This document shows, one piece after another, positions 8,388 through 36,417 of a stretch of 64,000 nt of DNA. Made by a program: the position numbers and the translations under genes. This DNA comes from Opitutia bacterium ISCC 52 (GTDB lineage Bacteria > Verrucomicrobiota > Verrucomicrobiia > Opitutales > UBA2995): positions 2,809,894-2,873,893 of the forward strand of contig CP076040.1 in the NCBI GenBank assembly GCA_014529675.2. Direction: 5' to 3'. The notes under the pieces were generated by a model that was not told the origin of the DNA, searched no databases, and worked only from the letters and a program-made list of their open reading frames with translations. Positions within the stretch are counted from its first letter, which is position 1. Each line of letters opens with the position of its first letter.

Positions 8388-10763
8388 ATGCAGAAAAAAA
8401 ACACCCTTTTATTCGCCTCATTAGTTTGTTTGGCATACTCTCTTGTCTGGTCAGCAAATGATATTGAAAACTTTTCTGACTCGACCCAACACGTTGTGGG
8501 AGGAGTCGATGCCGCAATCGAGGAATACCCCTGGATGGCTGCCCTCGTTTCGACAAGTATTGAAGGAAACACGCGACAATTTTGCGGCGCGACTGCTATC
8601 GCCCCTTATTGGGTTTTAACGGCAGGACATTGTGTGGATAAAGCCGCATCGCCGGAGAGCTTCAAAATAGTATTTGGAACAGCCGACCTCGAAAACGAGG
8701 AGACGGCCCAGGTATTTTACCCCAAATCCATTCTCATTCACTCCGACTACATCAATAGCTACACGAAGGATAATGATATTGCTCTGATCCAACTGAGAGA
8801 ACCTCTACCCGAATCGATTCCCAAAGTACCACTTTCCTCCGATCTATCTTTAGAAATGCCAGGAGTCACAGCCCGGCTGGTAGGCTGGGGAATTACAAAT
8901 TCCGATTTCCGAGACCGTCAGGACACCTTGATTCTACAGCAAGTAGATATGACAATCGTTAGCCAGGAGTTTGCAAACCTCCCTGAGTACTACGACGGAC
9001 GAGTACGTGAAAACGTGATACCCGCGGGGGATATCGAACCTTATCATTCGAGCGGCTCTGGTGACAGTGGTGGACCATTACTCTCCTTCAATGATACATT
9101 GGATCGATGGGAACAAATAGGTATTTCCAACTACGGTGCCGGATGTGCCAAACCTGAAAATCCAATTTCAGCCTATGCTAGAATCTCTACCCACATGGAA
9201 TGGATAAACAATATCCTGAATAATGATTTCCTGAGCTGGACGAACCGATTTGAGCTGACTGAACTCGGCTACAATGAGGGTGATGATAATAGCCCGCTCC
9301 TGGAATATATTTTTGATCTCGATCCAACGGTGATTGATCAACCCAAGACTGAATTGGCTATTACAAGATCCCATGGAGAGAGTTTGGCAGCAGGCACTCT
9401 CCGTCTCCGGAACACGGTTCCTCTCATTAACGTAAACCGGGAATGGTCGAGCGACTTACAGAACTGGGAAACGCTACAGCATGACCATGACGAAATCTCC
9501 AAAGAACCCGTTCAGGGCTCAAATTTAAGCCGATACAAGATCCCCATTATCATAAGCAATTCCGACCCCGGTTTCTACAGAATTTCTCACGAAGACAATG
9601 GCGGCATTATACACGGTCCCCATACCATACGAGTGGGCTCTTCTCTGAAAGGGCTTTTCAACCGAGGAATCGATGCTGCCGGACCGACCCATTTCGATTA
9701 CTTAATCGATACCATGGGCTCACTTAGATCCATTCGAGTAGCAGCAGAGTCGGATATTGATCAACCGATCTCAATCAAAGTGGTGGAAATTGAAACTGGT
9801 AGGCTCATGATCGATTGGTCGGGGGCCAGTAACCCTGATAGCTCGCCATACCCCTTCGGCGAAGGTTTCTGGCCAGAGGAAGGAAACCAATACCTGCTTA
9901 GGGTTTCATCCATCGACTACACCCTGCCTCAAAGCTTTGTAATCCATCTGGATCATGTTGAGGGCCTCATCAATTCTAGTTCATTTGAAATCTGCATGGG
10001 CGAACTCACAGCTGATGACTTCAGTTTCAAGCGCTTGAATCATTATGGAGATACATTCATATCTGATTTTGCTGCAAATTCTATTTTCAAAATCGAAGTA
10101 AGAACGGATGATCTAGATCAGCTCATCTTTTTGCAAGACGCGGCTACTGGGGAGCTAATTGAAGAAATAGATCAAAAGCCTTCAGGCGAGACTGAGTCCG
10201 TGCTAGTGCGTTTTGACAAAAACCGAAAACTCTTTGTCACCATCGCCTCTTTCGAAAGTAATGATACTGGCGCTTATGAGTATCAATTGAGTCACTTTAC
10301 AGAAAAAAAGTTTATTCAAGCAGACGAAAAAACCATTGGGCTCATTCACAGTGCCGATAAAACAACAGAACTCGGCGGCATTGAGTATTACTTAGAGGAA
10401 ATTGACCTACTTAACGTCCATAACCCGGCGGGAATCACAGTGAAGATCACGGGATATGGCAGTTATTATCCTTCTTACTTGATATACAACCTGACAACTG
10501 GTGAAACCATCCACAGTGCGGTAGCTCGTTGTGACGATCGATCCTACTACTTCAATCCAGTTACATCGAACAACTACCGAGTTGTCATACTCGCTTCCAA
10601 AAGCAGACTTGGAGATAATTACGAACTGGAAATAGTCAAAGGAGATATTCAGAACGAAGTTGATACAGAAGCAGCTATTTTAAGTTCAAAACAGGAACAA
10701 GATCTTCCAACTGAAGGTGATTTAGAATGGCATGTGATTCACCAAGTCTACCAGACCCCCTAA
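8388..10763 (+). CDS. Secreted trypsin-like serine protease with long C-terminal region
   Basis: With the ATG at 8388 the protein has 791 residues and a Sec signal peptide (MQKKNTLLFASLVCLAYSLV). An ATG at 8235 in the same frame would overlap the divergent gene and lose the signal peptide. Residues about 36-280 are an S1A trypsin domain: V-V-G-G at 36-39, T-A-G-H-C with His81, D-I-A-L with Asp130, and G-D-S-G-G with Ser227. The V-V-G-G is preceded by Gln-His, not Arg or Lys, so activation would need a different protease or does not occur as in trypsin. The remaining 500 residues carry a W-S-S-D-L-Q-N-W...Y-R-I segment common in secreted verrucomicrobial proteins and beta-rich repeats resembling pre-peptidase C-terminal domains, probably for adhesion or secretion. 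Confidence 0.88.
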   Translation: MQKKNTLLFASLVCLAYSLVWSANDIENFSDSTQHVVGGVDAAIEEYPWMAALVSTSIEGNTRQFCGATAIAPYWVLTAGHCVDKAASPESFKIVFGTADLENEETAQVFYPKSILIHSDYINSYTKDNDIALIQLREPLPESIPKVPLSSDLSLEMPGVTARLVGWGITNSDFRDRQDTLILQQVDMTIVSQEFANLPEYYDGRVRENVIPAGDIEPYHSSGSGDSGGPLLSFNDTLDRWEQIGISNYGAGCAKPENPISAYARISTHMEWINNILNNDFLSWTNRFELTELGYNEGDDNSPLLEYIFDLDPTVIDQPKTELAITRSHGESLAAGTLRLRNTVPLINVNREWSSDLQNWETLQHDHDEISKEPVQGSNLSRYKIPIIISNSDPGFYRISHEDNGGIIHGPHTIRVGSSLKGLFNRGIDAAGPTHFDYLIDTMGSLRSIRVAAESDIDQPISIKVVEIETGRLMIDWSGASNPDSSPYPFGEGFWPEEGNQYLLRVSSIDYTLPQSFVIHLDHVEGLINSSSFEICMGELTADDFSFKRLNHYGDTFISDFAANSIFKIEVRTDDLDQLIFLQDAATGELIEEIDQKPSGETESVLVRFDKNRKLFVTIASFESNDTGAYEYQLSHFTEKKFIQADEKTIGLIHSADKTTELGGIEYYLEEIDLLNVHNPAGITVKITGYGSYYPSYLIYNLTTGETIHSAVARCDDRSYYFNPVTSNNYRVVILASKSRLGDNYELEIVKGDIQNEVDTEAAILSSKQEQDLPTEGDLEWHVIHQVYQTP

Positions 10764-33181: not shown

Positions 33182-34045
33182 TTAATTCACACTATCCGGA
33201 TCTTCGCTATCGATCACTTCAACCTCGCCTATCTTCACATTCGCTTCTTCATTAAAGCGTTTTGTGATGAGGCCCTTCATGTTTTGGCCGTAATAATCGC
33301 CTGCTACTTCATTCATCTGCCCAATGGCTGCGGTAAATGACTGTCCTAACGCTCGCATGCTGTACCGTGTTCTCCATAGCATAACCGTCTCACCTTCCTT
33401 AAGCTTCTGATAATCATAGGCCATGAGGATAATGAAATAGCGTTCCTCATCGATCATGCGTTTTAGCTGCTCTTCCTCGTAGCGACTTCCAATCAAATCA
33501 AAAGCTTCTTCCATCCCAAGTAGTTGAGATTTGTAGTAAGCGTTTCCTTCATTGGCCTCAGAAATAGAAAGCGAGGCGTTGTAGTTAAACTCCAACTCGG
33601 AGGAGATATTACTGGGATTATCAAATGCGATGCTTTTGTCAGGTGTGAGGCCACCCATATCATCGAGTGAAGTGTAACCGTGCAGGTCCTGCAGGGAATC
33701 CTCAGCTGGTCGCGTTCTTCCCCAGTGAACAACGATAAGCAGATCCGTATTCTCAGGGTCAGGGTCCGGGATAAAATTGTTTTTGCCCAGGTTTAGAGCG
33801 ACGTCCTGGACGATATCATTAAAGGAAAGATCTTCCATCGATGGATCTGATACTGACCCTGGGTGATAATTACCCTTCAAAAACCTATAAGTCAGGATTT
33901 TCTTATCCGGATCTCTAGCACGCTCTTTGGTGAACTCATCCCAGGCTTCAGCTCGAACAGAGACGCGATTGACGGCCAACAAACCGGTGGTGGCGAGGCA
34001 TAGGAACAGGAAATAAGTGAAGGCAGTTCTTATATTAAGGGACAT
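33182..34045 (-). CDS. Secreted protein of unknown family, paralogue A
   Basis: I do not recognise this 287-residue protein. The ATG at 34045 gives a signal peptide (MSLNIRTAFTYFLFLCLATT), and a longer start at 34126 is unlikely. Shared with the gene at 34233 are L-L-I-V-V-H, E-F-N-Y-N-A-S-L-S, L-L-G-M-E-x-A-F, E-E-R-Y-F, Y-D-x-Q-K-L-x-x-G-E, L-W-R-T-R-Y, and a C-terminal G-E-V-E-V-I-D. Both end within a few residues of the same point. There is no metal or catalytic motif that I can name; the exported, mixed alpha/beta pattern suggests a periplasmic or outer-membrane-associated role. Tandem duplication, possibly cotranscribed with paralogue B. Confidence 0.7.
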   Translation of the reverse strand: MSLNIRTAFTYFLFLCLATTGLLAVNRVSVRAEAWDEFTKERARDPDKKILTYRFLKGNYHPGSVSDPSMEDLSFNDIVQDVALNLGKNNFIPDPDPENTDLLIVVHWGRTRPAEDSLQDLHGYTSLDDMGGLTPDKSIAFDNPSNISSELEFNYNASLSISEANEGNAYYKSQLLGMEEAFDLIGSRYEEEQLKRMIDEERYFIILMAYDYQKLKEGETVMLWRTRYSMRALGQSFTAAIGQMNEVAGDYYGQNMKGLITKRFNEEANVKIGEVEVIDSEDPDSVN

Positions 34046-34232
34046 GATAATAAAAATAACGGAGGTTTGTAAAAGAGGGTTACATACAAGAGAGACAACA
34101 CCAAGGACTTCAGGATCCCTCCACAATTTTCAAAAGGAATCTAAACAAAACTGGCCTATTCTCAAGCTCTGATTGAATCACATCCCACGGCCATTCATAT
34201 ACAAGATTTAGCTGTGTATGGACTGATCTAAA

Positions 34233-35189
34233 TTAATTCAGACCTGCTTCAGGTTCATCAAGAACTTCAATCTCACCCACCTTGACTCGTGAATCGTCGG
34301 TAGCGCGTTTCATAACCAATTCCTTTTGATTGGTGCCGAAATAGTCACCAGCAATCTGGTTCATACTCCGAATCGCTTCATCAAATGGTTGCCCGGTGGA
34401 GCGAATATTGTAGCGCGTCCGCCAAAGCAGAACCTTTTCCCCTTTTCGGAGTTTTTGAAAGTCGTAGACATTGAGGACCACGAAATACCGCTCCTGATTG
34501 ATCAGTGTGTTAAGTTCCCACTGCTGCCTGGGAGACCCATGGAATTCAAATGCCTGCTCCATACCCAGCAACTGCGCTTTCTTGAACGAGGCTGCGTTGT
34601 GCGCTTCCTCCACAGACAGACTGGCGTTGTAGTTAAACTCTACCCCCGGATCGACGGTATTCGGGACATCGAATACAGGTCCCGTGTCGTTTGGCTCATC
34701 AAAGAGTTCGTTGGAGTGGTTTCCGTCCAATCGATCCACATCCGTTGTATCTTCCCAAATGTATCCAGTATTTCCAAAGGGATCGTTCATCTCCTCGATC
34801 GAGTTGTAGCCCATGCTCTCGGTCAGCGAATCAGGTCGACCGCCCGTCACCCCGTAATGGACCACAATAAGTAAATCGCTTTGATCTTCATCGCCTTCAC
34901 TCTCTGGAAAGAATTGCTGATACTTTAGATTTGCCGCCAAGTCTTCGACCAGCTCCTCAAAGCTCACATCACTCATGCTGGGATCCGCTATGCCTCCCCC
35001 ATAATATTTACCCTTCATGAAGAGATAGGTCTGCACCTTCTCCTCCAGATTGCGGGCACGTTCAGTTAAATATTCACCTAGTGCTTCGGCATTTACCACT
35101 ACCTGATTGGCGCCATTGGCAGCGGCAAAGCTAGTTAGAATAAAGGCGAAAATGATAGCCAAGATCTTTTCAATTTGAGCAAACTTCAT
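34233..35189 (-). CDS. Secreted protein of unknown family, paralogue B
   Basis: This 318-residue protein has a signal peptide (MKFAQIEKILAIIFAFILTS) and is clearly related to the gene at 33182. It shares R-A-R-N/D-blocks near the N-terminus, D-P-S-M-x-D-x-S-F, L-L-I-V-V-H, E-F-N-Y-N-A-S-L-S, L-L-G-M-E-Q-A-F, E-R-Y-F-V-V-L, K-L-R-K-G-E, L-L-W-R-T-R-Y, I-A-G-D-Y-F-G and a V-K-V-G-E-I-E-V-L ending. It differs by a 30-residue acidic insert near 125-160. Function is unknown. It stands upstream in the minus-strand pair, with 187 bases between the two coding regions. The conservation across paralogues shows these are real, selected genes. Confidence 0.72.
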   Translation of the reverse strand: MKFAQIEKILAIIFAFILTSFAAANGANQVVVNAEALGEYLTERARNLEEKVQTYLFMKGKYYGGGIADPSMSDVSFEELVEDLAANLKYQQFFPESEGDEDQSDLLIVVHYGVTGGRPDSLTESMGYNSIEEMNDPFGNTGYIWEDTTDVDRLDGNHSNELFDEPNDTGPVFDVPNTVDPGVEFNYNASLSVEEAHNAASFKKAQLLGMEQAFEFHGSPRQQWELNTLINQERYFVVLNVYDFQKLRKGEKVLLWRTRYNIRSTGQPFDEAIRSMNQIAGDYFGTNQKELVMKRATDDSRVKVGEIEVLDEPEAGLN

Positions 35190-35349
35190 GTGAAGGACGT
35201 TTGCTGCACCCTACTAATAAAAAGAGATTAAACAAGCTACTTCGCTCTATCCATGTGTGAACAAGAAACGTTGCGGTGCCATTTATTCCAAACAGATGGG
35301 TAAAGATTCAAAGAAGGAATTTTGTATCGCCTATCTGGAGCCTGAATAC

Positions 35350-35622
35350 ATGATAATGACCATGGTAAGGATTACGATTATTAGCTTGTTAGTTCTACTA
35401 CCCGCAGCTTTTAAAGCTGCAGATCGAACAATCGGAGAGCTCTTTGCCACCCGGTCGGAAGTGATCGCACAGCATGGCATGGTCGCCACCAGTCAACCGC
35501 TCGCAACACAGATAGGCTTGGATATTTTGAAAAAGGGTGGCACCGCCGTGGACGCGGCTATCGCGGCCAATGCAGCCATGGGCCTTATGCGACCTAACAG
35601 CAATGGCATCGGAGGAGATCTT
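35350..35622 (+). pseudogene. Gamma-glutamyltransferase, N-terminal fragment
   Basis: A signal peptide (M-V-R-I-T-I-I-S-L-L-V-L-L-P, best start 35350 or 35362) is followed by a sequence typical of gamma-glutamyltransferase: G-M-V-A-T-S-Q-P-L-A-T-Q-I-G, then G-L-D-I-L-K-K-G-G-T-A-V-D-A-A-I-A-A-N and G-I-G-G-D-L. That is where the substrate-binding part of the heavy chain begins. The match stops at 35622, about 90 of an expected 550 or more residues in. The sequence after that is a fragment of a different gene. Confidence 0.8.
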
Positions 35623-35761
35623 CAGAAGCCAACTTGTCCAAAGCCTCATTCAGATCAATGACATGCTCATCATTATTCATCGATTCAGGTAATCCCACCA
35701 AATCATCAAATTCTGCCCGCTGATGGTCGCCGCCATGCCGAATCGCCTGCCGAAGCCGTTG
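35618..35761 (-). pseudogene. ECF sigma factor, internal fragment
   Basis: On the minus strand the frame reads RLRQAIRHGGDHQRAEFDDL, then P-E-S-M-N-N-D-E-H-V-I-D-L-N-E-A-L-D-K-L-A-S-E-D. This resembles the region 2-to-4 linker of the ECF group common in Planctomycetota and Verrucomicrobiota, where a basic R-G-G stretch precedes an L-D-E-A-L-x-x-L motif. The ends coincide with the gamma-glutamyltransferase and amidohydrolase fragments. Only about 46 codons survive, so it is inactive. The assignment rests on this short resemblance. Confidence 0.55.
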
Positions 35762-36417
35762 GCAGCAATGTGGAAGTGCCAGAGGATGCCCGAAGATGGG
35801 ATCTAACGGACAAGATAGTCTATGCTGGATTTATTGACGCATACTCTCAATACGGCATGCCGGAAGGCTTGAAGACTTTCAAGTCCGGGGGTGGATCCGA
35901 AGGACCCGCTAGAAGGATGAATCCAACGCCTTCTACTCAGGGTGCCTATGCCTGGAATCCTTTAGTAACACCAGAACGAGATGCCTTCGAGGTTTTTAAA
36001 CCTAATGCGAAAGATGCTGAAAGCTTGAACGATGCCGGATTCACAACCGTGGCTACCTACCCTGCAAGAGGTATTTTCCGTGGGCAAGGCCTCCTGGTTC
36101 ATGCGGATGGCTCATCCATCAAGGATGCCACGATCAAAAGCCAAATATCGCAGCACATTTGGTTTGATACCTGGAATCAATCCAGGACGGAACGCCCCAA
36201 TGATTCCTGGATCTATCCAGTGTCTTTGATGGGAAGTATAGCCCAAGTCCGACAGACACTTTATGATGCTCAATGGTATGAAAAGGTCCTACAGGCTTAT
36301 GACAAGAACCCCGACAAAATGGAGAAGCCAGTTGAAGATTCCGCTTTGGCTTCCCTCCAAGGCCTCATCAACCAAAAGCAATGGGCACTATGGCGTGATG
36401 AAGCAGCGCGCTGGTAA
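35762..36417 (+). pseudogene. Amidohydrolase (COG1228-like), internal fragment
   Basis: The frame runs from about 35762 to 36417. It begins G-S-N-V-E-V-P-E-D-A-R-R-W-D-L-T-D-K and Y-A-G-F-I-D-A-Y-S-Q-Y-G, the region where imidazolonepropionase-like amidohydrolases have P-G-F-I-D followed by H-x-H. Here H-x-H is replaced by Tyr-Ser-Gln, as in the inactive half of some duplicated members. A long helical part follows (QISQHIWFDTWNQSRTERPN). The homology ends near 36375, where the frame passes into the antisense of the universal stress protein gene. Both ends are missing, so it is a remnant. Confidence 0.65.

Follow-up and report, generated by a model that had tools for sequence, protein, structure and literature searches.

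The genome of Opitutia bacterium ISCC 52 is a single contig of 4.8 Mb, of which we analysed a stretch of 64,000 nucleotides (positions 2,809,894-2,873,893), called the window below. It contains two adjacent genes, both of them complete, each with an ATG start, a stop codon and a hydrophobic stretch at the N-terminus of its product (Table 1). The initial annotation had described two adjacent exported proteins of 287 and 318 residues, and both the coordinates and the lengths proved right, the export signals having been recognized by eye. The two products, P0001 and P0002, are identical at 126 of 298 aligned positions (42%) and similar at 186 of 298 (BLASTP, E 3e-84), a likeness that, judged on the sequences, is far beyond chance. 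The blocks LLGMExAF, LWRTRY and GDY[YF]G, which had been reported as shared by the C-terminal halves, are indeed found in both proteins, but the likeness extends into the N-terminal halves as well, the alignment beginning at residue 12 of P0001. P0002 carries 28 additional residues in a variable middle region.

Table 1. Features of the gene pair (window coordinates)
Feature	Position	Strand	Basis
Paralogue 1 (P0001), 287 aa	33182..34045	-	stop codon 33182-33184; translation
Putative export signal, paralogue 1, ~residues 1-25, without lipobox	33971..34045	-	by eye from sequence
DUF4136-like N-terminal half, paralogue 1, ~residues 48-112	33710..33904	-	alignment with paralogue 2; profile matches
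Conserved C-terminal half, paralogue 1, ~residues 198-271	33233..33454	-	paralogue alignment; conserved columns
Paralogue 2 (P0002), 318 aa	34233..35189	-	stop codon 34233-34235; translation
Putative export signal, paralogue 2, ~residues 1-26, without lipobox	35112..35189	-	by eye from sequence
DUF4136-like N-terminal half, paralogue 2, residues 50-116	34842..35042	-	hhalign A1 vs A2; shuffle control
Variable middle insert, paralogue 2, residues 117-229	34503..34841	-	alignment blocks
Conserved C-terminal half, paralogue 2, residues 230-302	34284..34502	-	alignments; hhalign C-half vs intermediate family

Conserved columns and export signals

The C-terminal half of P0001 carries ERYF, YD, LWRTRY and GDYYG, while that of P0002 includes W256, invariant in two family alignments, and G285; the conserved LLGME block lies near the end of the variable middle insert of P0002. 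In an alignment of 90 family sequences, one of which is a broken copy (L141), and with the start methionine set aside, the columns conserved at 90% or more are, in P0002 numbering, Y55, G60, L88, G113, G209, R234, Y235, 241, D243, W256, R259, G266, G285, V302 and G305, position 241 being Ala in 99% of the sequences and Val in P0002. Cysteine and histidine are absent from the columns conserved at 75% or more, and the conserved columns look more like a structural core than like an active site; columns of Arg, Asp, Tyr and Thr are conserved, and these may be compatible with an enzyme.

As regards the mode of export, 85 of 100 members have no cysteine beyond residue 45. A crude test found a hydrophobic N-terminus in only 73 of 100, the failures being ascribed to putatively mis-called starts. 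Of 100 members with 230 aa or more, 4 show a lipobox-like pattern, and among these only L163 is convincing by eye; on inspection L038, a further member, also resembles a lipoprotein. There is no lipobox in either window protein, and neither has the lipoprotein signal typical of the DUF4136 proteins discussed below.

Copies, spread and arrays

Searching the genome with P0002, and then with a profile of 89 members (A6; all 18 first-look candidates were scored), revealed nine family copies, eight of them open and one with an in-frame stop. Besides the window pair there are a triplet at 4406.8-4409.8 kb and single copies at 907, 3420, 3865 and 4097 kb, the last being the one split by the stop. Single stops were also reported for the 907-kb copy and for one copy of the triplet, but each of these has an uninterrupted reading frame, so that the stop is apparently the terminator of the gene itself; a tenth match to A6 (E 2.87) is noise. 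The original observation of two tandem paralogues was thus correct and understated, since the pair accounts for just two of nine copies.

Used alone as a query, P0002 detects relatives in 20 of 132 genomes, its own included, and A1, a profile of 39 members, does so in 24 of 286 genomes of the class, a single and weak match (E 9.5e-4) falling outside the order. With A6, 32 of 387 genomes of the phylum match, all 32 of them in the same order, and so do 52 of 273 sampled genomes of that order at E 1e-5, a count to which G020 and G052 contribute; both have proteins of the intermediate family described below, and since that family matches A6, a few of the 52 genomes may owe their match to it. The other 221 gave no match at this threshold, some of these genomes being incomplete. 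A single-protein scan of genome contigs, which sees close relatives only, found just the metagenome-assembled genome (MAG) of a sister species. In the sampled genomes the family is all but confined to one order of Verrucomicrobiota, and the suggestion that these proteins are lineage-specific holds. A mobile origin was considered and set aside, no relative having been found by tblastn with P0002 in 72,556 plasmid and 50,697 phage records, nor among 11 pattern matches obtained when viral contigs were scanned with A1.

The 82 arrays that we examined comprise 110 genes, and 17 of them hold more than one gene. In the largest, with nine tandem genes (L115:2019-11127, genome G335), eight of the nine form one clade in a tree of 98 members, and this array therefore expanded locally. 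The same tree puts P0002 together with its orthologue as the sister group of the P0001-type genes (support 100/95), which means that the window pair predates the split of this species from that of the sister MAG. Both the tree and A6 took members of 230-420 aa, so that P0001, reduced to 218 aa by a mis-called start, is missing from them and is represented by its orthologues L150:6770 and L145. Neither A6 nor the tree includes the broken copy L141; L027, which is the same contig as L150, was excluded from the tree and the array counts.

Some loci are of interest in themselves. The first six predicted genes of the L115 array overlap their neighbours by four bases, in an operon-like manner. In genome G254 a predicted protein of 537 aa (L120:5128-6741) matches more than one family unit, in the order C-terminal half, then N-terminal half with part of a C-terminal half, and is a probable fusion of neighbouring copies. 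In the relative G003 (3.1 Mb) all four family loci found (L141-L144) are broken or truncated; the family can therefore be lost.

Selection on the window pair

Conservation after duplication had been taken as a sign of selection, but synonymous sites between P0001 and P0002 are saturated, so that the paralogue comparison is no proof of it; it is the orthologues that reveal selection. Those in the sister MAG are 94% identical for P0001, with a dN/dS of 0.032, and 89% identical for P0002, with a dN/dS of 0.027 (Nei-Gojobori, first 30 aligned codons omitted), dS between the two species being about 0.8 for both genes. A third locus gave 0.013, but at a high dS (2.05). This codon comparison shows the intact copies in the window to be real genes under strong purifying selection.

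Probable relation to DUF4136 through intermediate lipoproteins

Searches of Pfam and NCBIfam at E 10 returned nothing for P0001 or P0002, and for the 39 members of A1 NCBIfam gave single scattered matches only. When members were scanned one by one, DUF4136 (PF13590) was the only family matched by more than one of them, namely by 5 of 39 (best E 6.2e-4) and by 10 of 89 (at E 0.1; best 1.1e-4). Conversely, PF13590 run against 53 genomes picked up a family member at E 6.6e-4 and 21.6 bits, which falls below the Pfam gathering cut-off of 32.8 bits, and no family member is known from our scans to score above that cut-off.

Two further sets of proteins were assembled from the PF13590 matches. The first (A2) consists of 17 of the 18 matches above the cut-off, L062 being omitted as near-identical to L061, and the second (A3) of 6 of the 10 matches below it, picked for looking alike. 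The latter are lipoproteins of 238-294 aa from the same order (L071, L072, L073, L074, L081 and L082), and all six match both PF13590 (best 3.9e-7) and the family profile A6 (E between 2e-11 and 2e-6, with the database size fixed at 10,000). In the same kind of single-profile search A6 matched 0 of 17 canonical DUF4136 proteins and, as controls, 0 of 5 sulfatases and 0 of 5 TonB receptors. When the profiles of the family and of A3 were aligned with each other (hhalign), the two halves were spanned co-linearly with a probability of 96.7-97, the N-terminal halves scoring 50.8 (60 shuffles reached at most 17.7) and the C-terminal halves 35.3 (at most 22.0, again in 60 shuffles), whereas crossed halves and unrelated profiles score at background. 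In direct comparison with DUF4136 the N-terminal half still aligns (E 3.7e-7, probability 92.9; score 34.9, the highest of 60 shuffles being 15.7), while the C-terminal half scores 15.0, exactly the shuffle maximum of 15.0; for this half the profiles suggest a relation to DUF4136 only via the intermediate family. Taken together, the profiles indicate that the family is very probably a remote homologue of DUF4136 in both halves, mainly through the intermediate lipoproteins. No A3 match was found in the Opitutia bacterium ISCC 52 genome at E 1, in a search run without a positive control.

The initial annotation had stated that the proteins match no known family. This holds for curated families, and is to be qualified by the profile link to DUF4136 via the intermediates. 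A confident match to a characterized family was not found, and the match to DUF4136 does not overturn the claim, because DUF4136 itself is described in PMC5192318 as being of unknown function. We regard the family as best filed as a divergent, anchor-less branch of DUF4136-like envelope proteins that scores below the line for formal Pfam membership. As judged by titles and the beginnings of abstracts, the open-licence full texts on DUF4136 included none on Verrucomicrobiota, and open-licence papers on paralogue expansion in Opitutales/Opitutaceae, or on paralogous secreted families together with TonB receptors and sulfatases, do not describe the family.

Structure searches and models

Against the PDB sequences, P0002 gave no match and P0001 a single chain at a meaningless E of 1.4. 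The only match of the 89-member profile at E values up to 10 was 4f54, at an insignificant 0.21; the 39-member profile found two unrelated chains (E 0.49 and 0.5) and not 4f54, and A3 only one unrelated chain, at 0.5. The DUF4136 profile A2 does find 4f54 (E 3.2e-5), together with 4l8n. AlphaFold models, built on alignments of four rows that held the window proteins and one related locus, were poor (pLDDT 39.5 and 37.2). Foldseek with the first model returned nothing at E 0.001 or better, and its best matches, HpaA and peroxiredoxins, were discarded, their query-normalized TM-scores being below 0.2. Both poor models place a helix and a strand, and then two strands and a helix, around the conserved blocks, which may be taken as a hint only.

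Gene neighbourhood

The gene upstream of the array is co-directional in 55 of 77 arrays and the gene downstream is opposed in 52 of 75, according to a simple gene caller on which all our neighbour counts rest; thus, family genes tend to end a transcription unit. In 7 of 77 arrays the gene immediately upstream is on the same strand and encodes a TonB-dependent receptor. Within the taxonomic family of the window this is so in 6 of 24 co-directional cases against 4 of 162 other genes of the same loci (p 3.7e-4), and a sulfatase lies directly downstream in 10 of 28 cases, as compared with 12 of the 162 other genes (p 2e-4). The test was chosen after the data had been seen, and its counts treat orthologous arrays separately, the six TonB cases amounting to about three arrays by the tree; five of the neighbours themselves had also served to build the local TonB model. 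The reverse sides give no such signal, a sulfatase being upstream in 0 of 24 cases and a TonB receptor downstream in 2 of 28 (p 0.22). Outside the window's taxonomic family neither association is seen, a TonB receptor being found upstream in 1 of 31 cases against 4 of 349 background genes and a sulfatase downstream in 2 of 47 against 5 of 349.

Pfam scans were carried out for 50 of the 77 upstream neighbours (those more than 700 bases away or on the other strand being excluded) and for 65 of the 75 downstream ones (more than 700 bases excluded). Upstream, a Plug domain was found in 5 of 50; across the genome Plug is matched 22 times, one gene accounting for two of these matches. Matches to the sulfatase family (PF00884) number at least 150 in the 4.8 Mb of the genome, where 150 of 312 candidates were scored, and for this reason sulfatase neighbours lose weight as a specific sign. 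The association of the family with TonB receptors and sulfatases is suggestive only. As for the pair in the window, it is flanked by a sulfatase and, on its opposite side, by remnants of genes, and no TonB receptor adjoins it.

Other neighbours are fewer. A histidine kinase domain occurs in 4 of 50 co-directional upstream neighbours and TctA in 3 of 50; there are also genes that we take to encode TRAP-like transporters, and by our reading both transporter types follow orthologous arrays. L026 and L124 share the same order of a tripartite tricarboxylate transporter (presumably with TctC and TctB genes), one or more family genes and a DksA/TraR zinc-finger gene, the latter assigned by Pfam in L026 and by clustering in L124. 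The PadR regulator family was matched by 2 of 65 downstream neighbours, which by sequence look like the co-directional genes L183:7684-8046 and L191:6061-6393.

The pair is immediately preceded in the sister MAG by intact genes for an ECF sigma factor and a Ser/Thr kinase. The corresponding side of the pair in the window, at 35257-36417 on the plus strand, is a region of gene remnants, including what we presume from a motif to be a gamma-glutamyltranspeptidase-like 5' fragment. Within it, a remnant of 139 bp (35614-35752) is 93.5% identical to part (L150:10663-10801) of the sister-MAG sigma gene at L150:10517-11080, and another stretch matches L150:12693-13031.

Discussion

The explanation that we put forward, tentatively and as falling somewhat short of probable when taken as a whole, is that these are DUF4136-related, soluble, accessory binding proteins of the cell envelope. 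The pair would belong, as tandem members, to an Opitutales-centred and repeatedly duplicated family of Sec-exported soluble proteins, sharing, as the profile comparison indicates, common ancestry with DUF4136-like envelope lipoproteins. Its two conserved halves would probably form the DUF4136 alpha/beta core, with the long variable insert between them. Because most copies have no lipid-anchor motif, they would be free in the periplasm, and the N-terminal signals make such a soluble periplasmic location likely. Each copy would act as an accessory binding protein of the envelope rather than as an enzyme, the conserved core docking to an envelope partner that the copies share, and each copy owing its own ligand or partner to the variable insert. 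Finally, and more speculatively, several copies in the window's taxonomic family might serve TonB-dependent uptake of sulfated glycans; it is the gene neighbourhood that points to an accessory binding role tied to uptake, and we hold this part to be possible and rather doubtful.

Other explanations have to be considered. The family could have a new fold unrelated to DUF4136, the similarity reflecting convergence on a helix-strand pattern common in exported proteins. The window proteins do indeed have no Pfam match at E 10, the direct match of the C-terminal half to DUF4136 is at shuffle level, none of the 17 DUF4136 proteins is found by a single profile, and the 39-member profile found no DUF4136-like PDB chain; but convergence would have to account for six intermediates out of six that match both sides, and for two halves that are co-linear with those of the intermediates at scores above all 60 shuffles, which the crossed halves do not reach. 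We therefore regard it as improbable. A further possibility is that the family is dispensable, being born and dying by duplication and decay with no essential role common to its members, some lineages retaining it while in others it decays. The four broken or truncated places in G003, the in-frame stop in one of the nine copies of the genome studied here, and the 221 of 273 genomes of the order that gave no match at E 1e-5 (some of them incomplete) would all be expected on this view, which is nevertheless quite unlikely given that a dN/dS of 0.03 for both window genes denotes strong constraint.

It may also be asked whether the proteins respond to envelope stress, or sense it, under the control of signalling genes and apart from any uptake. 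This would fit with the genes for an ECF sigma factor and a Ser/Thr kinase that immediately precede the pair in the sister MAG, with the 139-bp piece of that sigma gene kept in the window and with the histidine kinase domain in 4 of 50 co-directional upstream neighbours, and there is a parallel in a Burkholderia biofilm two-component operon which, according to PMC5192318, has DUF4136 as its last gene. However, no intact sigma factor or kinase adjoins the window pair, and 4 of 50 is a small number with its background not measured, so that a signalling-controlled role seems unlikely, if less so than the two preceding alternatives.

Whichever role applies, a conserved and multiplied family that has no Pfam or NCBIfam match is now placed beside the functionally blank DUF4136 superfamily, and its expanded set of paralogues, in arrays of up to nine, offers a handle on the function of that superfamily. 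If the link to TonB receptors and sulfatases were true, the family would point to a component that has so far been lacking from the picture of how sulfatase-rich Verrucomicrobiota take up sulfated polysaccharides.

Comparison with known systems

The closest known proteins are the DUF4136 lipoproteins. Family members would likewise be exported envelope proteins, and their conserved halves are co-linear with those of DUF4136 via the intermediates, most strongly in the N-terminal half. They differ in that most have no lipobox, whereas the cysteine is invariant in the 17 A2 rows, in having a variable middle insert of about 100 residues, in their tandem multiplication, and in a longer C-terminus that ends in a V.xGExEV motif; they also remain below the Pfam cut-off. 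The intermediate lipoproteins of A3 resemble the family over the full length of the profile alignment, both halves included, and are unlike it in that all six keep a lipobox-type cysteine and all six match PF13590.

The other system that comes to mind is that of the SusD-type partners of TonB receptors. SusD is a larger lipoprotein, and the only likeness is one of gene order, 7 of 77 arrays following a TonB receptor; no SusD family is among the 17 families listed for the 89 members (E 0.1), and, with only 7 of the 77 arrays having an upstream gene showing a TonB-dependent receptor there, the pairing is not a constant one. In PMC8857213, the Verrucomicrobiota MAGs of one bloom study are described as having no SusCD genes in their polysaccharide loci, and this leaves room in such loci for a TonB-receptor partner of their own. 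Opitutales might conceivably, although we give the idea little credence, have built a periplasmic partner of this kind from a DUF4136-type lipoprotein, by stripping it of its anchor, inserting a variable ligand loop and multiplying the result, with each copy serving a different sulfated glycan.
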